In this document: positions 13,688 through 53,574 of the stretch, piece by piece
Position numbering within the stretch: position 1 is the first letter of the stretch
Layout of the letters: the number at the start of each line of letters is the position of its first letter
From: Desulfonatronospira thiodismutans ASO3-1
GTDB taxonomy: Bacteria > Desulfobacterota > Desulfovibrionia > Desulfovibrionales > Desulfonatronovibrionaceae
NCBI RefSeq assembly: GCF_000174435.1
Contig: NZ_ACJN02000002.1
Coordinates: forward strand, 558,001-622,000
DNA length: 64,000 bases
Direction of reading: 5' to 3'
Notes under the pieces: generated by a model
The model's input: only the letters and a program-made list of their open reading frames with translations
Told to the model about the DNA's origin: nothing
Databases searched by the model: none
Position numbers and translations under genes: made by a program

Positions 13688-14713
13688 ATGTTTATTTCCA
13701 AGCTGTTTTCCCTCTTCGGCAAGAGCCTGGCCATGGACCTGGGTACAGCCAATACTTTGATGTATACACCCAGGGACGGTATTGTCCTCAATGAACCTTC
13801 TGTGGTGGCCCTGGATTCCAGGGACGGCAAAGTGCTTGCCGTAGGTCGCGAAGCCAAGGAGTTTCTGGGACGCACTCCCCAGAGAATAGTGGCTATAAGA
13901 CCCATGAAGGACGGGGTCATCGCTGATTTCGAAGTCACCAATGCCATGATCTCCTTTTTCATCAAGAAGGTTATCCACGGGTTCAACCTGGTCAAACCCA
14001 AAATGGTCATCTGCGTTCCCACCGGTATAACTCAGGTGGAGAAAAGGGCGGTCATCGAGTCCGGGCTGCAGTCCGGGGCCCGGGAGGTGAGGTTGGTGGA
14101 AGAGCCCATGGCGGCGGCCATCGGAGCAGGCATGAGCATCGAGGAGCCCCTGGGCAACCTGGTTGTGGACATAGGAGGCGGGACCACAGAAGTGGCAGTG
14201 ATTTCCCTGTCTGCAGTGGCTTATTCCGAGTCTGTCCGGGTGGCCGGAGACGAGATGAACGAGGCCATTCAGCGTTTTATCCAGGAAGAGTTTCAGCTCC
14301 TGGTGGGGGAGAACATGGCGGAAAATATCAAAATGAACATAGGCACGGCTTATCCCCCGCCGGAACCCATGACCTTCAGGGTGCAGGGCAAGAGAATCGT
14401 GGACGGCAACCCGGCTGCAGTGGAGATAAACGACGCACAGGTACGCGAGGCTATACAGGAGCCTGTGCGGGCCATTGTCCACGCCGTGCATCAGGCCATG
14501 GAGAAGACTCCGCCGGAACTGGTTTCCGATATTGCTGACAATGGCATTCTTCTGGCTGGAGGCGGCGCCCTGCTCAAGGGGCTGGACCAGCTCATAAGCA
14601 AAGAGGTCCAGGTAAGGGTGCAGGTGGACGAGGAGCCCCTGACCACTGTACTCAGGGGCACGGGAAAGGCCCTGACCCAGGAAAAAAAGTATTCTTACGT
14701 TTTTATTAATTAG
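13688..14713 (+). CDS. mreB: Rod shape-determining protein MreB
   Basis: A 341-residue bacterial actin homologue that directs lateral wall synthesis in rod-shaped cells. Visible motifs are the phosphate-binding MDLGTANT loop, VDIGGGTTEVA and LAGGGALLKGLD of the actin ATPase fold. The N-terminus MFISKLFSLFG fits the membrane-binding amphipathic helix. ATG 13688 is preferred over TTG 13685. mreC, mreD and pbp2, often downstream, are absent here; a palindromic element begins one base after the stop codon. Confidence 0.96.
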   Translation: MFISKLFSLFGKSLAMDLGTANTLMYTPRDGIVLNEPSVVALDSRDGKVLAVGREAKEFLGRTPQRIVAIRPMKDGVIADFEVTNAMISFFIKKVIHGFNLVKPKMVICVPTGITQVEKRAVIESGLQSGAREVRLVEEPMAAAIGAGMSIEEPLGNLVVDIGGGTTEVAVISLSAVAYSESVRVAGDEMNEAIQRFIQEEFQLLVGENMAENIKMNIGTAYPPPEPMTFRVQGKRIVDGNPAAVEINDAQVREAIQEPVRAIVHAVHQAMEKTPPELVSDIADNGILLAGGGALLKGLDQLISKEVQVRVQVDEEPLTTVLRGTGKALTQEKKYSYVFIN

Positions 14714-14870
14714 CACTACAGCGAAACTTATAAAATTTTTCAACCTGTCTAAACTGGGGACAGTCCCGCACCTACTTGATTTCTCAACAAGATTTAGTGA
14801 TTTCATGAAATCATTCCCAAGTAGGTGCGGGATAGTCCCCGGAGGTCAATAAATAAGTTTCGCTGTAGTG
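14714..14870. repeat. Family A palindromic element, full-length copy
   Basis: A 157 bp element. The terminal inverted repeats are CACTACAGCGAAACTTAT at 14714-14731 and its complement at 14853-14870. Inside, a second pair of arms (GGGGACAGTCCCGCACCTACTT and its near complement with GATAGTCCCC) lies around a GATTTCATGAAATC palindrome, so the whole element can fold back on itself. It starts one base after the mreB stop and may act as its transcript end. Related copies are at 45416, 53267 and, partial, 19399. Confidence 0.9.
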
Positions 14871-21903: not shown

Positions 21904-21989
21904 GCCGAAGTGGTGGAACAGGTAGACACGCTATCTTGAGGGGGTAGTGGGCACCGCCCGTGGGGGTTCGAATCCCCCCTTCGGCACCA
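21904..21989 (+). tRNA. tRNA-Leu (anticodon GAG)
   Basis: The acceptor arm GCCGAAG pairs with CTTCGGC, and the 3' CCA is encoded (21987-21989). The anticodon stem CTATC/GGTAG encloses the loop TTGAGGG, giving anticodon GAG. A long variable arm (class II) and a GGTTCGAATCC T-arm are present. It lies 27 bases after secG and may share its transcript. Confidence 0.97.
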
Positions 21990-22043
21990 TCAACAAGTCC
22001 AGTCGAGTCAGACTGAATTAATAAAGTCAATAAATTCAGAGCT

Positions 22044-22076
22044 TAAGCCCGGGCATCCTGTCCGGGCTTATTTTTT
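22044..22076 (+). terminator. Rho-independent terminator after tRNA-Leu(GAG)
   Basis: TAAGCCCGG (22044-22052) pairs with CCGGGCTTA (22062-22070) and is followed by six T. Confidence 0.92.
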
Positions 22077-22179
22077 GGGTGCTGCCGGCTCTGGCCTTAG
22101 TCAAACCTGCATCAAAGCCGTGCAGAAGTTTTGAGCCTGGAGCAGTCTGTCATGCTGACCTTTCCCGCCCTGGCAGATT

Positions 22180-22217
22180 GTAACCATTCAGGGGGTCCTC
22201 GGTGTTGATTACTGGCC
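22180..22217. repeat. Family B left-end fragment
   Basis: GTAACCATTCAGGGG is followed by the internal block GGTGTTGATTACTGGC, the same order as at 60008. The rest of the element is missing. It lies just upstream of the RNA ligase partner gene. Confidence 0.75.
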
Positions 22218-22266
22218 TTTTGTAAGCCCTTCTTGACACCCGGCATGGTCATTTTATTTTTTGAGG

Positions 22267-22893
22267 ATGAAACAGAACATGACAGAAAAGGACATAAAAT
22301 CCAGCCGGAGCAGGGTTGTTCTGGACACAAGCATACTGACCAATCCTGAATCCAGGCAGTATTTCGGAGAAGATCTGCCCTCAGCCATTAAAAAGATATG
22401 TTTTCTGGTCCAGGAATGCGGTTTTGAGCTTTATATTCCTTCTTCGGTTTTCAAAGAGCTCTCCAACTTTGTGCCGGCAAAGGAATTGACAGGACTGCGT
22501 ATTCTTGCCGTTGTCCGCAATCCCGACCTGTACAATCTTCAGGTCCCGGCGGCCATATTCCATGCCTTTATCCACAAGCTGCGCCAAAGGGTGAACAAGG
22601 GCCTGCAGGTAGCGGAAAAGGCCATTGAAAGGGATAACCTCCCGGAAAACATCCGCTGGGTTCGGCAGCATTACCGTGAAGCCCTGCGCAGCGGAATTCT
22701 GGACAGTACAGAAGACCTGGAGGTAGTGCTTATGGCCAGGGAAGTTCAGGGACTGGTTCTCACCGAAGACCAGGGTATCTGCAGTATGGCTTCAGATCTG
22801 GGTCTGGAGGTTTTCAACGCTCTGGATTTTGTCCACTACTGTCAGGGCGTCATGAAGGAGGATGACTTTGCTCGACCAGGATCAAGGAATTGA
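22267..22893 (+). CDS. RNA ligase partner protein (PIN-like domain)
   Basis: About 208 residues. The sequence VVLDTSILTNPESRQYFG near the N-terminus and the acidic residues in STEDLEVVLMAREVQG and LTEDQGICSMA fit a PIN-like nuclease fold. The neighbour is an archaeal-type RNA ligase; this pairing is the known RNA ligase partner family. The biochemical role is not established; RNA end processing before ligation is a reasonable inference. Start: ATG 22267 (TTG 22261 and ATG 22279 are alternatives). Its 3' end overlaps the ligase gene by 26 bases and holds the ligase ribosome binding site. Confidence 0.85.
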   Translation: MKQNMTEKDIKSSRSRVVLDTSILTNPESRQYFGEDLPSAIKKICFLVQECGFELYIPSSVFKELSNFVPAKELTGLRILAVVRNPDLYNLQVPAAIFHAFIHKLRQRVNKGLQVAEKAIERDNLPENIRWVRQHYREALRSGILDSTEDLEVVLMAREVQGLVLTEDQGICSMASDLGLEVFNALDFVHYCQGVMKEDDFARPGSRN

Positions 22894-23953
22894 ACACAAT
22901 GAATACAACGGACTGGTTTATTCCAGGCAGAGAAAGGACAGTTCCTTCCCCCGGGGCACGGTACATCTATATAATGAGGATCAGAGCCGTCCAGGCAGAA
23001 GCATAACAGGGTTTCCGCACATCAAAAGGACTTACCACCTGCATGCCGGAATCAAAAGGCTTTTCAAAAACGATTCCTTTAAGGCCGAAGAAAAGCTGGA
23101 CGGATACAATCTGCGTGTATTCAGCCATGCAGGACGACTTCTGGCCGCCACCAGGGGAGGCTTTATCTGCCCTTTCAGCACCGAATGGGCCGGTATATGG
23201 GCTGAAGAATACGATCTGGATGGTTTTTTCAGAGATTATCCCGGGCACTATCTGTGCGGGGAGGTTCTAGGGGATAACCCTTACAACCGCCAGCGCGGCG
23301 TTGATCTGTCTCCGGGAGCCCATTTCTTTGTATTTGAGGTCTGCAAGCCCGACGGCACCTTTTTGCCTGTATCCACCAAAGAAGAACTGCTGCGTGAATA
23401 TGGACTGCCGGCAGTGAAAGAACTGGGCACCTTTAATGCGTTGCAGGGTGAAGAACTTTATGCTCTTCTTCGCGACCTCAACTCCCGGGGCAAGGAGGGC
23501 GTAGTGCTCAAGTCACCCGATTCCTCCAGGCGGATGAAGTTTGTCACTCCGGAATGCGATATCCAGGATATCAAGGACGGCCTCGAGGTCGGGTTTGATC
23601 TGGATATGGGTTTTTTTCAGAGCCGATACATGCGGGTTGTTTATTTTGTTCAGGAGCTCGGCCTGGATAAGGACGAATACTCCCGGAAGCTGGGGCGGGC
23701 ATTTATGGACGGCATTCCAGTATCAGAGAATTACCAGGGTGCCAGGGAAGAATACACCGTATATCTGTCCAGCCGTAACACCTGGCAGTCCTTGCTCAGC
23801 ATGCTCATAAGCCAGATCAAAATCAGGACGCTGGAAACATCCTGGCAGCATGTCCGGGGCAGGGAAATGCTCAAGGTGCGCTTTGCCAGGATTTATACCA
23901 GAAGCGGCAAACGTTATCAGAGGATGATCAAGGGTGTGCTGCACCAGGATTGA
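22868..23953 (+). CDS. ATP-dependent RNA ligase, archaeal Rnl3 (Pab1020) type
   Basis: A 361-residue nucleotidyltransferase that joins RNA ends through a covalent lysyl-AMP. Motif I is KLDGYN with Lys at about 76; motif III is FFVFEV, motif IV GKEGVVLKS and motif V the RRMKFV stretch. A C-terminal helical domain fits the dimerisation part of the Pab1020 family, whose archaeal members circularise RNA. I prefer TTG 22868, with AAGGAGG (22855-22861) six bases upstream, over ATG 22862, which abuts that site. The family is mainly archaeal with scattered bacterial members, suggesting past transfer. The substrate is unknown. Confidence 0.88.
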   Translation: MLDQDQGIEHNEYNGLVYSRQRKDSSFPRGTVHLYNEDQSRPGRSITGFPHIKRTYHLHAGIKRLFKNDSFKAEEKLDGYNLRVFSHAGRLLAATRGGFICPFSTEWAGIWAEEYDLDGFFRDYPGHYLCGEVLGDNPYNRQRGVDLSPGAHFFVFEVCKPDGTFLPVSTKEELLREYGLPAVKELGTFNALQGEELYALLRDLNSRGKEGVVLKSPDSSRRMKFVTPECDIQDIKDGLEVGFDLDMGFFQSRYMRVVYFVQELGLDKDEYSRKLGRAFMDGIPVSENYQGAREEYTVYLSSRNTWQSLLSMLISQIKIRTLETSWQHVRGREMLKVRFARIYTRSGKRYQRMIKGVLHQD

Positions 23954-24111
23954 TAAGTTCATAGAGGACAGAAGCAAGGTGGCATTAGTCTGTGCGTTGG
24001 TAGAGTTAAAAAATCAGTGCTGGGGGACTGTCCCCTGCTTTCCTTAAAAAGGGGGCTGAACTGTTACGTCTGATTGAAGCCGGAAGCCCGGACCGGCAGG
24101 ATACAAAGGAC
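23954..24111. other. Gap after the RNA ligase with a palindrome
   Basis: GGGGGACTGTCCCC at 24022-24035 is a stand-alone copy of the palindrome shared by families A and B. No gene is seen up to the family B element at 24112. Confidence 0.6.
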
Positions 24112-24286
24112 GTAACCATTCAGGGGGCAGGTACCGGCCAGTGGGACAGTCCCCGCGACACTTTTCCTTCACCAATACAAAAAGTACAGGCGCGAAATTA
24201 AGTGAAGCTGCATAGTCACTACTCAGCGGGGACAGTCCCCTGGCCTAATGCCATGAGTCACCACCGTGGACCCCCTGAATGGTTAC
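24112..24286. repeat. Family B palindromic element, complete copy (175 bp)
   Basis: GTAACCATTCAGGGG at 24112-24126 and CCCCTGAATGGTTAC at 24272-24286 are exact inverted repeats. The interior has GGGACAGTCCCC near the left end and CAGCGGGGACAGTCCCCTGG near the right. Its right third matches that of the copy ending at 30730. Confidence 0.9.
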
Positions 24287-24783
24287 CAAAGGACGAATCT
24301 TTGTTGATTCAGTAAAAAGGACATCCGGCTCAAGAGAGGGCAAATAAAAGACTGCAGCTTGCACACCATGTAACACCTTGATTTGTATGTTTTTTCTCCA
24401 TGGTTGACAATGCTTTTTGTTTACAGCTAAAGTTATTATCAAGGTCGAATTGCCGGCCATGATACCCTGAGAATGTTGCTGCAAAAAAGTCCAGAGCCAA
24501 GTGTAGTCAAAGTAAACTTGGCCACAGTATTAATCGGTTTCTATGTGTTTACTTTTCCATGATCCTTAAGCGGACTATTCTGAGCTGGCGGCAGAAATGG
24601 ATTTTTTACGGGGATATCATGCGAGGCTTGCCCAGCAGGATAATGTTTTTCTGTACATGCAAGCCCAACTGTTCTTATCAGGTTTGAGTTTAACAGCGGT
24701 TGCAGGTAATATGCCATATTTCTATCATAGCTTAAACCGCTGGCGAGCTTAATTTTTGCACCACAATCCAGGCGTTTCCTCCA
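24287..24783. other. Intergenic region upstream of the TPR gene
   Basis: This 497-base stretch is AT-rich around 24380-24450. A perfect TTGACA at 24404-24409 could be a -35 element, but no good -10 lies at the right distance. No RNA gene, repeat or convincing ORF was recognised. Confidence 0.4.
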
Positions 24784-25557
24784 ATGACACACCAGCAGTC
24801 CACTGCAGAAGTCCGGTCTCCCCAGATAAACGGGGTTTTTTCCTCTACTTCCAAAATAACGGTTGGATATGGGCATACCAAAAAGAAAACCACCCAGTAC
24901 ATACTCATCTACGCCACTGAAAGGGAAGACGGCAACATCAACATCCAGACCCTCAATGAAAAGTATGTGCCCACCGGAGCCTCCAGGGTCATCAGCAAGG
25001 ACAACCTCATGACCAACTACCTTCCGGAGCCGGAGCTGTATATGAACAAGGTCTATCCGGTTATCCGTGAACTCTCCAAGACTGTGGCCAGGGGTGAGAG
25101 GCACCTGCGCAACAGCGAGAATTACAGCGCCGAGATGGAATTCAAGAAGGCCCTGCGGGTGGATGAGGAAAATATCCGGGCCACATTCGGCCTTGGTCTG
25201 TCCTACCTCAGAAGAGGTGAGACCGACAACGGCAAAACCGTCTTTAAGAGACTGGTTTCTCTTAAAAATGCCTTTGAGCCTGAGCACAAGCACATGTTCA
25301 ACGAGTTCGGCATCCAGCTTCGCAAAAACAAGATGTTTGTGCAGGCCATCAAATATTACTCCCGGGCCATGCAATACAGCCAGCGTGATGAAAATCTTTA
25401 TTTCAACATGGCCAGGACCTATTATGAATACGGCAAGACTTCAATGGCGGTAAAATTTGTCCAGAAAGCACTGGAAATCAATCCGCAAATGTCCCAGGCA
25501 CTGGAGTTCAAATCCTATATCGTTAAAAAAATGCCCACCTATCATCTCAAGGCCTGA
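24784..25557 (+). CDS. TPR protein, Desulfovibrio type
   Basis: A 257-residue cytosolic protein. The N-terminal part (INGVFSSTSKITVGYGHTKKKTTQ and the NEKYVPTGASRVISKD stretch) followed by about four TPR units (from residue 110) is an arrangement I recognise from hypothetical proteins conserved in Desulfovibrionales. TPR modules bind proteins; the partner is unknown. A clear ribosome binding site is missing before the ATG at 24784. The next gene, a hybrid histidine kinase, begins 16 bases after the stop, so the TPR protein may serve the same signalling pathway. Confidence 0.82.
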   Translation: MTHQQSTAEVRSPQINGVFSSTSKITVGYGHTKKKTTQYILIYATEREDGNINIQTLNEKYVPTGASRVISKDNLMTNYLPEPELYMNKVYPVIRELSKTVARGERHLRNSENYSAEMEFKKALRVDEENIRATFGLGLSYLRRGETDNGKTVFKRLVSLKNAFEPEHKHMFNEFGIQLRKNKMFVQAIKYYSRAMQYSQRDENLYFNMARTYYEYGKTSMAVKFVQKALEINPQMSQALEFKSYIVKKMPTYHLKA

Positions 25558-25573
25558 TGCAGTGATTGAAGGA

Positions 25574-27994
25574 ATGAATAAGTACGCTGACAACCTGTGC
25601 TCCAGCGAAGAGCGTTATCGCAAACTCTTCGAGAATTCCCCCCTTGGCATTTTTCAAGCCGATGACAAAGGCATCATTGTCGACTGCAACGACAATTTCG
25701 TAAAGATCATAGGTTCGTCCCGCCAGGCCCTTATAGGCCTGAATATACATTCCCTGCCCGACACAAAGCTTGTAACGGAGTTCAAGAAGTCTTTGTCCGG
25801 AGAAGCAGGATTTTATGAAGATGTTTACCATTCGGTTTCAGTGGATAAGGCCACACCGGTCAAGGTGCATTTCGCTCCCATCTTTGCAGATAACGGCAGA
25901 ATCCAGGGATGCATGGGGATAGTCGAGGATGTTACCCAGAAAAAGTTAGACGAAGAAGAGATCCACAAAAACGCCAGACGCCTCTCAGAGATCAATCATT
26001 GCCTGCTTGGTCTGGGCCAGGACTTTGAGACCAATGTACAGCGGCTGACGGCTCTTTGCGGAGACCTGCTGGGAGCTGCGTGCGCCTTGTACAATCGCCT
26101 GGAATCAGGCCTTCTGTGTTCCATGGGGCAGTGGCAGGCTCCGGAAGACTACGATCCCAGGGACCATCCCCAGGGGCACATATGCTACGATGCCATAAAG
26201 CAGGGCCAAAACGAGACAATGGTGGTCACCGATCTGGACCAGACTGAGTATGCCCGTACAGACCCCAATGTCCGGCGGTACAACCTGAAGACCTATCTGG
26301 GGCACCCGGTGAAGTGCGGTGAAGACTTTGTAGGCACATTATGCGTGGTCTACCAGGAAAATAGAGTTCCTACAGAAGATGATAAAAAGGTGATAGGCAT
26401 TATCGCCTCCGCCCTGAGTGCTGAGGAAGACCGCAGGCAGGCCCGGGAAGACCTTGTCAGAAGTCAGGAGTCCTTCAAAAGGCTTGCTGAGCAGTGCCCC
26501 ATATCCATAATGCAGTTTGACAGCCAGGGCCGCCTTATCTTTGTCAATGAGTGGCACATGCAGCACTTTGCAGGCAACGCGGTGGACAAACAGAAACTTT
26601 TGGGCATGCATATTCAGGAACTGCCAGGCCTGGAAAAGGCTGGCATCAATGAACAGGTAAGCCAGATACTAAATGGTGAACACCTTGATGTTCCGGAAAT
26701 ATTTTTTCCAGAGTTCATAGGCGGCGGTTGCGGCTGGGTTTCCCTGCGCGGTGTGCCTCTAAAGGAAGGTGACAAAATCACCGGAGGCATTTTAATCCGC
26801 GAAGACCTTACCGCCTGGAAAAAGACAGAGCAGGAACTGGTCAAAGCCAGGCAGGAAGCAGAGGCGGCAAGCAGGGTCAAGACCGAGTTTCTGGCCAATA
26901 TGAGCCACGAGATAAGAACACCTCTAAACGGCATCGCCGGTATGCTGCAGCTGTTAAAAGAGACCAGCCTGGACATGGAACAAAAGGAGTATGTGGATCT
27001 GGGCATAAAATCCTCTCACCGGCTGACCAGGCTTTTATCGGACATCCTGGACCTCTCGCGCATCGAGGCCGGGCACATGACCATCCACCAGGAAGAATTC
27101 GACCCGCTGGAGCTTTGCAGTTCGGTAAACGAACTTTTTGCCGTCACCACCAGAAACAAACATCTGTCCCTGGAATGTATCTTCCAGGAGGGTTTTCCTT
27201 CCAGGCTTGTTGGAGACGAGGCCAGGATCCAGCAGATACTCTTCAACCTGGTGGGCAATGCCCTGAAATTCACCGAAAAAGGCGGGGTGCAGGTGTCCTG
27301 GTCTTTGTACGCCGGGGACGATACTGAACAGCAGGTGCGCATAACTGTCCAGGACACCGGGATAGGCATGGAGCAGGAGGTGCTTCAGGAGCTCTTCAAG
27401 CCATTTGTCCAGGCTGAAAACTCCTATACACGCAAGTATCAGGGTGCAGGACTGGGACTGTCCATAGTCAAGAGACTTGTGGAGCTCATGCACGGAAACA
27501 TAAGCGTTAAGAGCGTGCCCGGGCAGGGCAGCACGTTCTACGTGGACCTTCCTTTGAAAGCTGCAGAGGACAGTGACGTTTCCAGGCAGGAAGACAGTCA
27601 GGACAGTGAAAAAGCTCTAAGCGGGCTCCGGATCCTTCTGGTGGAAGATGATCCGGCCAACCGCTTCGCCATGCAGAAGCTTCTGCAAAAATCAGGTCAT
27701 CATGTGCAGACGGCCCAGAACGGCAGTCAGGCCGTGGAAGCCTTTGCCCACAGCCACTTTGACTGTATTTTCATGGACATTCATATGCCGGTTATGGACG
27801 GGGTGCAGGCCACCAGGAAAATCAGAAGCATGCAGGATTCAGGCATAGCCCCAAAAGTCCCCATTATAGCCCTGACCGCTTATACATTAAACGGGGACCG
27901 GGAAAAATTTCTGGAGTCCGGCATGGATGAATACCTGGGCAAGCCGGTACAGATGCAGGACATTGAAAACGTTCTAAAAAAGCTCTTGGGCTGA
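25574..27994 (+). CDS. Hybrid sensor histidine kinase (PAS-GAF-PAS-HisKA-HATPase-REC)
   Basis: About 806 residues, soluble. Domain order: PAS (about 10-130, YRKLFENSPLGIFQAD), GAF (about 145-310), PAS (about 325-430), HisKA with FLANMSHEIRTPLNG, HATPase_c with NLVGNALKFTEKGG, DTGIGM and GAGLGLSI, and a C-terminal receiver with ILLVEDD, FMDIHMPVMDG and the Lys of YLGKPVQ. All catalytic residues are present. No Hpt domain or separate regulator is adjacent. The start is uncertain: ATG 25574 with GAAGGA nearly touching it, or GTG 25562. It follows the TPR gene closely. Confidence 0.92.
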   Translation: MNKYADNLCSSEERYRKLFENSPLGIFQADDKGIIVDCNDNFVKIIGSSRQALIGLNIHSLPDTKLVTEFKKSLSGEAGFYEDVYHSVSVDKATPVKVHFAPIFADNGRIQGCMGIVEDVTQKKLDEEEIHKNARRLSEINHCLLGLGQDFETNVQRLTALCGDLLGAACALYNRLESGLLCSMGQWQAPEDYDPRDHPQGHICYDAIKQGQNETMVVTDLDQTEYARTDPNVRRYNLKTYLGHPVKCGEDFVGTLCVVYQENRVPTEDDKKVIGIIASALSAEEDRRQAREDLVRSQESFKRLAEQCPISIMQFDSQGRLIFVNEWHMQHFAGNAVDKQKLLGMHIQELPGLEKAGINEQVSQILNGEHLDVPEIFFPEFIGGGCGWVSLRGVPLKEGDKITGGILIREDLTAWKKTEQELVKARQEAEAASRVKTEFLANMSHEIRTPLNGIAGMLQLLKETSLDMEQKEYVDLGIKSSHRLTRLLSDILDLSRIEAGHMTIHQEEFDPLELCSSVNELFAVTTRNKHLSLECIFQEGFPSRLVGDEARIQQILFNLVGNALKFTEKGGVQVSWSLYAGDDTEQQVRITVQDTGIGMEQEVLQELFKPFVQAENSYTRKYQGAGLGLSIVKRLVELMHGNISVKSVPGQGSTFYVDLPLKAAEDSDVSRQEDSQDSEKALSGLRILLVEDDPANRFAMQKLLQKSGHHVQTAQNGSQAVEAFAHSHFDCIFMDIHMPVMDGVQATRKIRSMQDSGIAPKVPIIALTAYTLNGDREKFLESGMDEYLGKPVQMQDIENVLKKLLG

Positions 27995-28066
27995 TGCAGA
28001 GAACTTCCAGCATTCACCCCTGCCGACAGCAGTAATTCAACTCTTGTGTTGCCGGTAGTTCAGGTT

Positions 28067-28597
28067 TTAGCGGGATGACAGGCTGCTGGAGCATGTTGGA
28101 CATACGGTATAAACCACGGTCAGATTCAGGGGTTTTTCCTGTGTGCCCTGATCCGGTTCCTGCCACTGGTCTTTGCTCTTTACCCGGCCGCAGATGCTGC
28201 ACCTGCTGACCATATTCCGGGACATCTGATCCGAAGTCTTAAAATATACAGTGCGGTTTCGCTTCTCGGTGGAGACGACCCTGTGTTCTACTCTGAGCAC
28301 CCCGGGCTTTTCGGGGATTATCTTCATCTGCATGTATCTTCTGGTATCCGGTGAGTCACAGCGGTAAGGGCGCTCAACAGCATCCCCGGTGATTTCAGCC
28401 AGCTGCAGGAGGGTGTCCAGCCACATCCTGGTGGAGTCGTCCCGGATATATTTCCATACCGAGCTTCCCTTGACCTGCCTTGAAAACGCCTTGGAGGCGT
28501 CATTTTCCAGGGCGAAGCGGTCCCAGGCCCCTCCGACTTCAATTATGCTTCTTTTTCTGTCCAGCCAGTAAATGACCTTTTGAGAATCTGTGCTCAC
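28067..28597 (-). CDS. Unrecognised protein with PAS-like front and two Cys pairs
   Basis: A 176-residue soluble protein of a family I cannot name. Residues 1-105 have the length and pattern of a PAS-like sensor (IEVGGAWDRFALENDA, VWKYIRDDSTRMWLDTLLQLAE). Residues about 133-172 carry CSIC and CPTC, spaced to form a single zinc site. Such pairing suggests a small sensory or redox-responsive protein. It starts 34 bases after the chemoreceptor gene ends on the same strand, so the two are probably co-transcribed. It is convergent with the hybrid kinase gene. Confidence 0.7.
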   Translation of the reverse strand: MSTDSQKVIYWLDRKRSIIEVGGAWDRFALENDASKAFSRQVKGSSVWKYIRDDSTRMWLDTLLQLAEITGDAVERPYRCDSPDTRRYMQMKIIPEKPGVLRVEHRVVSTEKRNRTVYFKTSDQMSRNMVSRCSICGRVKSKDQWQEPDQGTQEKPLNLTVVYTVCPTCSSSLSSR

Positions 28598-28630
28598 GGA
28601 TTTACCCTGTCACTTTTTAACTTTCCAGCT

Positions 28631-30199
28631 TTACTTTTGACTAAGCTGCTGTACCAGGTCCTTTAATTCCTGGGCCTGACGGGAGAGTTCTGCAATTGAA
28701 CCGGAGGACTGGGTCATGACCTCGCTTGTTTCTCTGGAAATGCGGTTTACTTCCTCTATGTTGCGGTTGACCTCTTCACTGGCGGTGGACTGCTCTTCGG
28801 TTGCGGTGGCAATGGCCTGGACCTGTTCTGTTGCTTTCTGGACCCGCCTGACAATGTCCTCCAGGGCCTCCCCGGAGCGGTTGGCCAGGCTGTTGGCCTC
28901 ATCGATAAGCGCCGAAGCCTGGTCCATGCCCTGTATATTGCTATTGGCCCCCTCCTGAATGGATGAAACAGCCTGCCCCACTTCCCTGGTGGCCTTCATG
29001 GTCTTTTCGGCCAGTTTGCGCACTTCATCGGCCACTACGGCGAACCCTCGCCCTGCATCCCCGGCCCTGGCCGCCTCGATGGCTGCATTGAGGGCCAGAA
29101 GATTGGTCTGGTCCGCAATATCATCAATAACATTCATGATGTTGCCTATCTCCTGTGCCTGTTTGCCCAGGCTGTCCATGCTGGACTGCAGTTCCCTGGA
29201 TTTTCCGTGCACCTTGTTTATTGCCGCCACAGAGTCTTCCACGACTTTTGAGCCCTCCCGGGCCATATCCCGGGCCTGATCAGCCTCCTGGGCCGCAGCA
29301 GAGGCGTTTCGGGCCACTTCCATAACGGTGCTGTTCATTTCCTCCATGGAGGTGGCCGTCTGCCCGGCCAGGGAAGTCTGGGATTCGGCCCCCCGGCTGG
29401 CCTGTTCCACCTGGGCGGCCAGGTCCCTGGAGGATGAGGCCAGGGATTCGGAAATGCTGGTGGCCTGACTGGCATAGCTGGAGATTATGCGGTTCTGTTC
29501 CTTGATACGCGCCTCCGAGGCCCGAATTTCGCTTAGATCAGTGTATATGCAAAGCGAACCCATGAGCTTGCCCTCGATATCGTACAGGGGCGAGGCATCA
29601 ATATGGATGCTGCGCTTGCCCCCTTTACGTCCGGTGAATTCCACCTCCTTGCTGATCCAGCGGTTTTCCTGCATGGCTGTACCCAGTACGGTCTGCCTTT
29701 TTTCACCATAGAAAAAGACAGCCACGTTCTGGCCGTAAAAGTCTTCGGGCCTGCCCTCGTGTTCCAGCATGTCCACCAGTTTCTGGTTGCCGAAGATGAA
29801 GTTTTCCTCAGTGTCGGTAACCGCGCAGGGAGTGGCCATGCTGTGCATGATCCCACGGGAGAGGCTCAGTTCGTATTTGAGGTGCTCAAGCATTTCCCGC
29901 AGGGCCTCCTGGGACTGGCCCATGAGACCCTGGTCCGGGAGCTGTCTGAATGTGCTGGTGTAGTGTCCGGAAGCTATACTTTTGGCCTGGGTGATGTTGT
30001 CCTGCAGGGTGCGGGAGACGAGGCTGGTGAAAGTGATGACTGCCAGGATAATCAGCGCGCCTCCTGCGCAGATGGCGGCCAGGAGCAGGCCTTCCGGGGC
30101 CCTGAAATACACCATTAAAACCATAAGGGCTGCATAGACTGCCACCAGGGCCAGTACAGCCGTCCTGAAGCTTTCCAGGGAACCAAGTAATCTTTGCAT
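28631..30199 (-). CDS. Methyl-accepting chemotaxis protein with cytoplasmic PAS
   Basis: A 522-residue chemoreceptor. Two membrane segments (about 13-32 and 37-60) are joined by a few residues, so there is no periplasmic sensor. A HAMP-like linker, a PAS domain (about 115-235, ending YTDLSEI) and a long signalling coil follow. The hairpin tip that contacts CheA and CheW ([20 protein letters not shown] then [18 protein letters not shown]) is intact. It probably senses an internal signal such as redox state. No CheR-tethering pentapeptide ends the protein. No other che genes are nearby. Confidence 0.95.
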
Positions 30200-30407
30200 A
30201 TGCCCTCTCCTGTTGAATAGCTTTGTTCTGTATCGTCTTTTCTCCTGCCGGGCTTTACCGCCTGACAGAAAATGTAGTAACCATTCAGGGGGTGCCTCAA
30301 TCGGCCCGGGGACAGTCCCCGCACTTATTTTTTTCTGATGAACAATTTACAGATGTGAGCGTCAGTGACTTACCCCTGAAACCCCGTCATAAAAAACAAG
30401 AAACTTA

Positions 30408-30613
30408 GACAGGATTAACAGGATTGACAGGATAAGCAATCAGCGGCCCCGGTGAAATCAGCTGCGCTGTCCTTCGGAATTTCACAGGGCAAGCCGGAAG
30501 CCGCAGATTGCATTAGCCATCGCCATAGGCGAGTGATAACCTTTTGGCCTGGCTTCCGGCCAGGACAAAAATGTTTTTCTCTTAATCAATCTCTTAATCC
30601 TGTTAATCCTGTC
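30408..30613. repeat. Nested inverted-repeat element with strong internal folding
   Basis: An exact 18 bp inverted repeat, GACAGGATTAACAGGATT at 30408-30425 and its complement at 30596-30613, bounds 206 bp. Inside are a family C hairpin (30447-30489), a perfect stem GCCGGAAGCC (30493-30502) / GGCTTCCGGC (30551-30560), and a small TCGCC/GGCGA hairpin between them. No reading frame stands out. Confidence 0.7.
30447..30489. repeat. Family C hairpin, copy 3
   Basis: CCCCGGTGAAAT pairs with ATTTCAC-A-GGG around the loop CAGCTGCGCTGTCCTTCGGA. The loop matches the copy at 19242 although the stem differs. Confidence 0.7.
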
Positions 30614-30841
30614 AAAAAACTCTTTTATTTATTGGGTTGCGGGCATAGCCCGCCTTAGAAAAATGAGTGCGTGACAGTCCCCAGGGCCTGGTGCCAGTAA
30701 TCACCACCGAGAAATCCCCTGAATGGTTACAAAATGTATGTGCTAACAGGCCCGGGAATATAACTACAGGTGTTGTCGGCAGGTGATCCGTCTGCCGGGA
30801 TCAATACTGATAATCCGGCCCGGGCGCAACTTTTTTTGATG

Positions 30842-32626
30842 TCAGGAAATAATGTCCACCTGGTGCATGCCGCGGACACTGTTCATGAGAAAGACCCTTG
30901 GGCTGTCCAGTACGTCCTGGATGCTCAGCACACTTTCGCGGATGACGCCCTGCTCCAGCATAAGAGAACGGTACACTCCGGGCAGCAGGCCGCAGCTTAC
31001 CGGGGGGGTGAGCAGTTCCCCGTTTTTTTCTACTGCCAGGTTGGCAATGGTGGATTCGGTAGCCTGGCCGCGATGATTGTATAGAAGCACGTCCCGGCAG
31101 CCGGGCCTGGCAGCCAGGGCCTGATTGTACACTTCCCTGTTGGTGGTTTTGTGGTATAAGAACCTGTTGTCTGGATCCACCGCTGAGGCGGCCAGGGGCA
31201 GACGGGAAAAACCGGGATTCTGCGTATCAAGCTTCACTGCCTGCACCTTCACCGCACCCTTCCTGGATACCAGCAGGCGTATTTTGTGCGGCTCCTGGGG
31301 CAGGGCAGCACCCAGATCCTGCAACTCACTGTGCACTCGCTGCAGGTCCAGGGGAAAGTCAAAGTATTCAGCAGATTCCTGCAGGCGCTCGAGGTGCATG
31401 CTCAAATAGGGAAAGCCTTTTGAAGGCTGCCACAAAATGCTTTCCAAAAGATCGAAGCCAGGGCCTGGAGTGGCCAGGACCCTGGCCTTGACCCTGGACT
31501 CGTTCATTTCCATGTCCGTTCTGGAGTCCCAGACTATGCCTCCGCCGATGCCGTATTCGGCCAGGCTTTTTGTCTGGTCCAGAAGGAGGGTGCGGATGGC
31601 CACGTTGAACTGGGCCTGCCTGCCCGGAGCTACATAGCCCATGGCCCCGGTGTAGATGCGCCTGGGTGCGGTTTCCAGTTCAGCGATGATTTCCGTGGTT
31701 CTGATCTTGGGGGCTCCGGTAATGGAGGCAGGTGGGAAAAGAGATGAAAAAATCGCGTCCAGGGGAGCGGATGTAGAACTCTCTACCAGAGAAGTCATCT
31801 GCCAGACATCGAAATACTTTTCCACGGAAAACAGCTGCGGAACATGCACGCTTCCCGGATGGGCTATGCGGCCCATGTCGTTTCGGACCATGTCCACTAT
31901 CATGACGTTTTCGGCCCTGTCTTTTTCCGATTTTTCAAGCTCCCGGGCCGCATGCCGGTCCTGGATGTTGTCCAGGCCCCTGGCAGCGGTGCCTTTCATG
32001 GGCCTGGACCTCAGGGTCTGTCCCTTGAGGGTGAAAAACATCTCCGGGGAAAAGCTGCACAGGGCGAACTCTCCGGTATCAATGAAGGCTGCGTATGGAG
32101 GATCCTGAGAGCGGTAGATGGTGCAGAAGATGTCCAGGGGATCAAGGGAGCATTCAGCTCTTAACCTGTAGGTAAAATTGACCTGATAGGTATCTCCGGC
32201 CCGGATATATTCCCGGATGCGGTCCAGGGAACTGGAGTATTCCCCGGGGGTAATGGAGGGCGACCAGTTCAGGCCCTCCAGAGAAACCCGGGAGTCCGGG
32301 CGGGGCAGTTCTGTTTCCCGCATACCGGAAAAAAGTCCGAACCACAGAAGGGGAAAACCTGAATCGTCCGGGCGGACTTTTAAATAAGGATCAAAGGCCA
32401 AAGAGGCCTCGTAGGAGACAAACCCGGCAGCGAAAAGGCTGTGGCCTTCAACCTGCTGTTCCACCTGCTGCAGTGCGGGCAGGACCTCTTCGGCAGTATG
32501 AGCCTTGATTATGCCCTCAAGGCCGTCAAATGAAAGCAGTTTTCCTGAGCGGGCCTGTCGGACTAAGGCCCGGGGGGTCTTTATGCCTGAAGATTCAGGT
32601 TGCGAAAGTGCGGATCCAGGATCCAT
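30842..32626 (-). CDS. pabBC: Aminodeoxychorismate synthase component I / ADC lyase fusion
   Basis: A 594-residue bifunctional enzyme for p-aminobenzoate, a folate precursor. Residues 1-390 are the PabB chorismate-binding domain; RPMKGTAARG carries the Lys of the PIKGT motif that marks PabB rather than TrpE, and ASITGAPKIRTTEII and IGGGIVWDS follow. Residues about 400-594 are a PabC-like PLP lyase, with the PLP Lys probably in YHKTTNREVY and a LLPGVYRSLML stretch. The gene starts 10 bases after the greA stop codon. A pabA amidotransferase gene is not in the window. Confidence 0.93.
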   Translation of the reverse strand: MDPGSALSQPESSGIKTPRALVRQARSGKLLSFDGLEGIIKAHTAEEVLPALQQVEQQVEGHSLFAAGFVSYEASLAFDPYLKVRPDDSGFPLLWFGLFSGMRETELPRPDSRVSLEGLNWSPSITPGEYSSSLDRIREYIRAGDTYQVNFTYRLRAECSLDPLDIFCTIYRSQDPPYAAFIDTGEFALCSFSPEMFFTLKGQTLRSRPMKGTAARGLDNIQDRHAARELEKSEKDRAENVMIVDMVRNDMGRIAHPGSVHVPQLFSVEKYFDVWQMTSLVESSTSAPLDAIFSSLFPPASITGAPKIRTTEIIAELETAPRRIYTGAMGYVAPGRQAQFNVAIRTLLLDQTKSLAEYGIGGGIVWDSRTDMEMNESRVKARVLATPGPGFDLLESILWQPSKGFPYLSMHLERLQESAEYFDFPLDLQRVHSELQDLGAALPQEPHKIRLLVSRKGAVKVQAVKLDTQNPGFSRLPLAASAVDPDNRFLYHKTTNREVYNQALAARPGCRDVLLYNHRGQATESTIANLAVEKNGELLTPPVSCGLLPGVYRSLMLEQGVIRESVLSIQDVLDSPRVFLMNSVRGMHQVDIIS

Positions 32627-53266: not shown

Positions 53267-53327
53267 CACTACAGCGAAACTTATGACTTTAGACAGGTTG
53301 AAAAATTTTATAAGTTTCGCTGTAGTG
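53267..53327. repeat. Family A element, internally deleted copy (61 bp)
   Basis: The terminal repeats CACTACAGCGAAACTTAT (53267-53284) and its complement (53310-53327) are perfect. Only 25 bases separate them, and these match, reversed, the left inner flank of the copy at 14714. The GGGGACAGTCCCC core is missing. 53328-53574 shows no gene. Confidence 0.88.
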
Positions 53328-53574
53328 TTATGCTGCAGCATGAAATAAGCAGTACAATTAATGTTGACATTGTAAATCATACAGCATAATTATAAAATAA
53401 AAAATGGTTTGAAAGTGTAGGTGACAAAATAATTTTTCAAGCCCGGGTCATCCATGGAACACTTCGTTTTTTTAAGGCAGGGCATCCAGGACAGAACACT
53501 TTTACTTATGAAAGCCTTGCTGCTACACCCCCTTAAAATGAACCGGGGCTTGCCGTCTTGCTTGTGCATGGACA

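Follow-up and report, generated by a model that had tools for sequence, protein, structure and literature searches.

Tandem genes for a HARP nuclease and an Rnl3 RNA ligase in Desulfonatronospira thiodismutans belong to a separate group of such pairs from several bacterial phyla

Two overlapping plus-strand genes in a stretch of 64,000 nucleotides from Desulfonatronospira thiodismutans (hereafter the window) encode a nuclease of the HARP family and an archaeal-type RNA ligase of the Rnl3 family. Judged by sequence, they belong to a separate group of tandem HARP-Rnl3 pairs present in several unrelated bacterial phyla, and it is this group that is new here. The ligase-partner pair noticed in a first-pass annotation of the window is real, but the HARP-Rnl3 link was already in print: Seshadri and Gopalan (2025; PMC12153264) report that 89% of HARP-positive genomes also have Rnl3, often next to HARP, and the main text of their paper names as co-linear only the pairs of Sulfolobales genera and that of D. 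thiodismutans, the sole bacterium. With moderate confidence, we read the locus as a translation-coupled, horizontally moved unit of two enzymes which would cut and seal a common RNA.

The upstream gene occupies positions 22267-22893 of the plus strand (208 aa if translation begins at ATG 22267, with TTG 22261 and ATG 22279 as further candidate starts). Its product scores 154.6 bits against the TIGR03875 'RNA ligase partner' profile (cut-off 95.3) and 159.3 bits against Pfam PIN_5 (1.1e-46; cut-off 27), and its best solved sequence relatives (7e8j, 7e8k, 7f3e, 8kd9, 7og5) are all 'RNA-free ribonuclease P'. The AlphaFold model (pLDDT 89.9) and its structure matches display a PIN fold with a protruding pair of spike helices (residues 95-121 and 126-141); the model matches 8kd9 with Z 21.3 (rmsd 2.9, 183 residues) and 7e8o with Z 20.8, VapC structures being found at Z 9-12. 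A PIN-fold nuclease had been proposed for this partner and the fold is borne out, but the known family was missed: by profile and modelled structure the protein is HARP, a homolog of Aquifex RNase P from the protein-only RNase P family. Lack of an acidic cluster, set out beforehand as grounds for refutation, is not what the partner shows. Aspartates D20, D146, D150 and D168, which align with the catalytic D7, D138, D142 and D161 of Aq880 (PMC8266387), are present in 83 of 83 aligned HARPs including that of the window, and the window model aligns with solved HARPs at Z 20-21.

Residues contacting tRNA are retained in part. In PbHARP, R116, R123, R138 and R142 touch tRNA; alanine mutants R116A, R123A and R142A cut cleavage strongly and R138A abolishes it (PMC9051087). 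A single numbering offset fits all four arginines and D151/D155 consistently to the window alignment, where R138 and R142 are kept as R133 and R137, R116 is replaced by Q114 and R123 by E121. Glutamine at position 114 occurs only in the window and in its relative L005, the other 81 of the 83 aligned HARPs having arginine there, and with Q114 the window HARP may cleave weakly or in an altered manner. E121 counts less, since the position of R123 varies in other HARPs too. The spike segment (window residues 100-150) is 51 residues long in all 13 pairs, the commonest length, found in most others, being 54; it is not unique to the pairs, because lengths of 50-53 residues occur in some archaea and Verrucomicrobia.

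The downstream gene (22868-23953, plus strand; 361 aa from TTG 22868, or 363 aa from the alternative start ATG 22862) encodes a protein scoring 234.3 bits against TIGR01209 (cut-off 136.9) and 3.8e-22 against Pfam RNA_ligase; Pfam Lig_C alone gives 19.7, under its cut-off of 25. Its solved sequence relatives are the archaeal RNA ligases 8uce and 2vug, and the AlphaFold model (pLDDT 93.4) matches 8ucf (Z 41.6, rmsd 2.2, 350 residues) and 2vug (Z 41.2) over the whole length, C-terminal region included. Identity to solved Rnl3 enzymes amounts to 29-34%. In the 363-aa numbering, the protein carries the nucleotidyltransferase motifs E77-K78-x-D80-G81, E212-G213, K217 and K226, with K78 as the adenylation lysine. 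Almost all of 37 homologs retain K78-x-D80-G81, E212-G213, K217 and K226, in agreement with the initial description of these motifs as intact. The TIGR01209 match upholds the archaeal type of the ligase, which we assign to Rnl3, and TIGR03875, TIGR01209 and PIN_5 scores far over their cut-offs mark both open reading frames as real genes.

AAGGAGG (22855-22861, plus strand), read from the sequence, probably serves the ligase gene as ribosome binding site and lies inside the HARP reading frame, where it had been placed before. TTG 22868 is located 6 nt after this motif, whereas ATG 22862 directly abuts it. The two genes overlap by 26 bases if counted from TTG 22868 and by 32 if counted from ATG 22862. 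The former value, also given at first, is the better reading because of the spacing of TTG and because the N-terminus starting there has the same length as in homologs such as MPDVERGVEQREYNGL. With the overlap and a binding site inside HARP, the claim that the two genes are translationally coupled appears right.

Relatives were sought by running a HARP alignment against 84,980 species genomes, and the best 80 of 548 loci were kept; a contig scan with the ligase alone as query gave no matches, but the HARP-alignment scan did. Among these 80 loci, twelve bacterial HARPs are 43-56% identical to that of the window, the next below reaching 36-43%. They come from Spirochaetota (L005, L008, L010, L012), Dadabacteria (L006, L007), HR37 (L009), a 'Deltaproteobacterium' (L011) and Chloroflexota (L013-L016). 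In all 12 of these nearest bacterial relatives the ligase lies directly 3' of HARP on the same strand. The genes overlap by 4 nt in L009, L010, L012, L014, L015 and L016 and by 8 nt in L005, or are separated by 6-18 nt in L006, L007 and L011 and by 51 nt in L013; in L008 the junction has no clear common start codon nearby. Outside this clade, the ligase is on the opposite strand in 28 of the 29 loci having one in the flank (again within the best 80 of 548), the single same-strand case being L042 (Heimdallarchaeum). In Heimdallarchaeota, HARP adjoins the ligase in both L042 and L017, on the same strand in the former and on opposite strands in the latter.

In trees of HARP (47 rows) and of the ligase (37 rows), a single branch separates the 13 co-linear pairs from the remaining rows (100/100 for HARP, 100/99 for the ligase). 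Four identical subgroups are recovered in the two trees, each of which places the window next to L005 as its sister (HARP 100/98, ligase 100/99). Phylogeny of both proteins, which the first-pass annotation had put forward as a check of shared transfer, thus returns one clade with the same internal grouping, and HARP and ligase have evidently travelled together. Beyond these two, no third conserved gene is common to the neighbourhoods of all four subgroups; smaller gene clusters that span subgroups are overlaps with the HARP-ligase pair in other frames.

In D. thiodismutans, the pair is situated in a segment (22003-30857, about 8.9 kb) missing at the same site in two congeners (L128, L130). These are about 86-92% identical to the window on the left of the segment and have the same tRNA-Leu gene, followed by 64-132 bp and then by the sequence of window 30847-30858. 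The left edge is formed by tRNA-Leu(GAG) with encoded CCA (21904-21989, plus strand), and a terminator-like hairpin (22044-22070, plus strand) stands between this gene and HARP. The segment contains HARP, the ligase, a TPR protein, a hybrid histidine kinase, a PAS-MCP protein and others; no integrase was seen in it, and a k-mer check found no tRNA-end repeat at its right edge. Among 297 genomes from the order, only 1 has HARP and ligase above cut-off, and none of 6 congeners does; for the class to which the Spirochaetaceae genome belongs, the figure is 1 of 248. Absence from two congeners and rarity in the order point to gain of the segment by the host, loss in the congeners being the alternative.

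Several further observations concern the surroundings. The right edge of the segment falls where a minus-strand gene has its 3' end (ORF of 594 aa, 30842-32626). The 'family B fragment' that had been remarked upstream of the pair (22180-22219, plus strand) turned out to belong to an inverted-repeat element of about 175 bp that is scattered over the genome, and to represent one of its ends; a full copy occupies 24112-24286. The element has inverted ends GTAACCATTCAGGGG(G/A) and occurs also at window positions 122, 30277, 30715, 60008 and 60195; genome-wide, its end motif was counted 167 times in forward and 170 times in reverse orientation (at most one mismatch; control 0). Another inverted repeat of 43 nt, 98% complementary, has its arms at 14711-14753 and 53288-53330, 38.5 kb apart, and a shorter piece of it lies near the tRNA-Leu gene of congener locus L129. 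A promoter-like site at 22233-22260 does not exceed chance expectation (1 found against 1.9) and was discarded. Phage or virus origin was likewise set aside, with no ligase match in phage records and no HARP relative in viral contigs, and so was a defence system, PADLOC giving no match for HARP or ligase and weak generic matches only for the kinase, TPR and MCP proteins encoded nearby.

The host genome contains RNase P RNA (RF00010, 342 bits), as do 11 of 12 genomes of the clade, four of these (Chloroflexota) with matches only under the family cut-off. HARP is therefore not needed as the sole RNase P, and tRNA 5' maturation in the host is already covered. CCA is encoded by every tRNA gene read (30 loci, about 32 distinct genes), and no fibrillarin was found in the host genome (97.7% completeness), archaeal controls having matched. 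Taken together, RNase P RNA, CCA-encoding tRNA genes and lack of fibrillarin make both housekeeping tRNA processing and circularisation of C/D-box RNAs unlikely tasks of the pair.

The products of RNase P bear 5'-phosphate and 3'-OH ends (PMC10652100), and these are the ends which MthRnl is reported to join (PMC5599603), so that HARP and Rnl3 could act in sequence without end healing. In the cut-and-seal reading, HARP, as a metal-dependent PIN nuclease, would cut a structured RNA precursor to leave 5'-phosphate and 3'-OH ends. Rnl3, produced from the same message, would then join these ends at the expense of ATP, closing a single RNA into a circle or connecting two pieces, as in repair, and no healing of ends would be required. 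The trimming and sealing or circularising of RNA ends supposed at the outset is in this respect possible. We infer that both enzymes act on one RNA and that the job of HARP is not mainly tRNA 5' maturation. They could also serve separate jobs; as the Palaeococcus ligase shows strong adenylation and weak ligation according to PMC12153264, sealing may not be the main act of the ligase. A more specific proposal is put forward tentatively: the bacterial co-linear pairs may be a distinct module, moved between phyla by gene transfer, which would cut and then circularise or repair a specific bacterial RNA other than C/D-box RNA, the Arg-to-Gln change in the window and L005 being a shift away from tRNA.

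The main rival, which we consider rather unlikely, takes HARP for a back-up or stress RNase P acting on pre-tRNAs and the ligase for an enzyme repairing broken RNA, the two being kept together for alkaline, saline stress and not for a common RNA ('independent retention' in PMC12153264). Retention of the HARP fold and catalytic residues counts in its favour. The nearest relative, L005, presumably comes from soda lake sediment, as we take its sample name to say. More broadly, PMC12153264 describes HARP hosts as mostly from saline, alkaline or hot places. However, the coupling of HARP with the ligase and their joint inheritance across the clade argue against independent roles, and the host already has its RNase P RNA. 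All tRNA genes read encode CCA, which is reported to slow Hydrogenobacter HARP about 10-fold (PMC12153264), and Q114 stands at the position of PbHARP R116, whose alanine mutant cleaves pre-tRNA far less (PMC9051087).

A toxin-antitoxin-like or tRNA-restriction pair, with HARP as a VapC-like RNA-cutting toxin and the ligase reversing or restraining it, is a weak alternative of low probability. The idea is raised in PMC12153264, and the PIN fold with its VapC matches, the two overlapping genes, their sporadic presence and their position inside a segment that congeners lack would all suit it. Against it, the ligase differs from VapB-type antitoxins in being a complete enzyme whose catalytic residues are conserved, no PADLOC defence model is matched by either protein, and a Thermococcus kodakarensis ligase knockout is reported to be without growth defect (PMC12153264). 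That the pair would mature and circularise C/D-box-like guide RNAs is very improbable here because the host is without fibrillarin, and the window contains no Rfam family except tRNA. Such a role has been put forward for archaea, where Rnl3 circularises C/D box sRNAs (PMC9014305) and HARP is the proposed 5' trimming enzyme (PMC12153264).

These findings touch the question why some microbes keep a protein-only RNase P in addition to the RNA-based one, and why an RNA ligase accompanies it. The bacterial clade, where the pair is packed and co-inherited in hosts with RNase P RNA, offers a cleaner place than archaea to find a shared substrate, and it argues against C/D-box circularisation as the general answer.

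Compared with the pair of Seshadri and Gopalan (PMC12153264), the window contains the same two families in adjacent position; to the one co-linear bacterium of that paper's main text, twelve more are added, from other phyla and in one clade with the window, and in these bacterial hosts the C/D-box circularisation discussed there is an unlikely role. The window HARP resembles Aquifex Aq_880, PbHARP and Hhal2243 in its PIN_5 fold, spike helices and four catalytic aspartates, and PbHARP also in the arginines aligned with R138 and R142, but differs from the latter by Q114 and E121 at R116 and R123. Unlike most HARPs, it has a spike segment of 51 and not 54 residues, and its host possesses RNase P RNA as well. 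The ligase shares with the Rnl3 enzymes PAB1020, MthRnl and the Palaeococcus ligase its length, its fold including the C-terminal region, the adenylation lysine and the nucleotidyltransferase motifs, whereas its identity to the solved enzymes is 29-34% and it resides in a bacterial host without fibrillarin.
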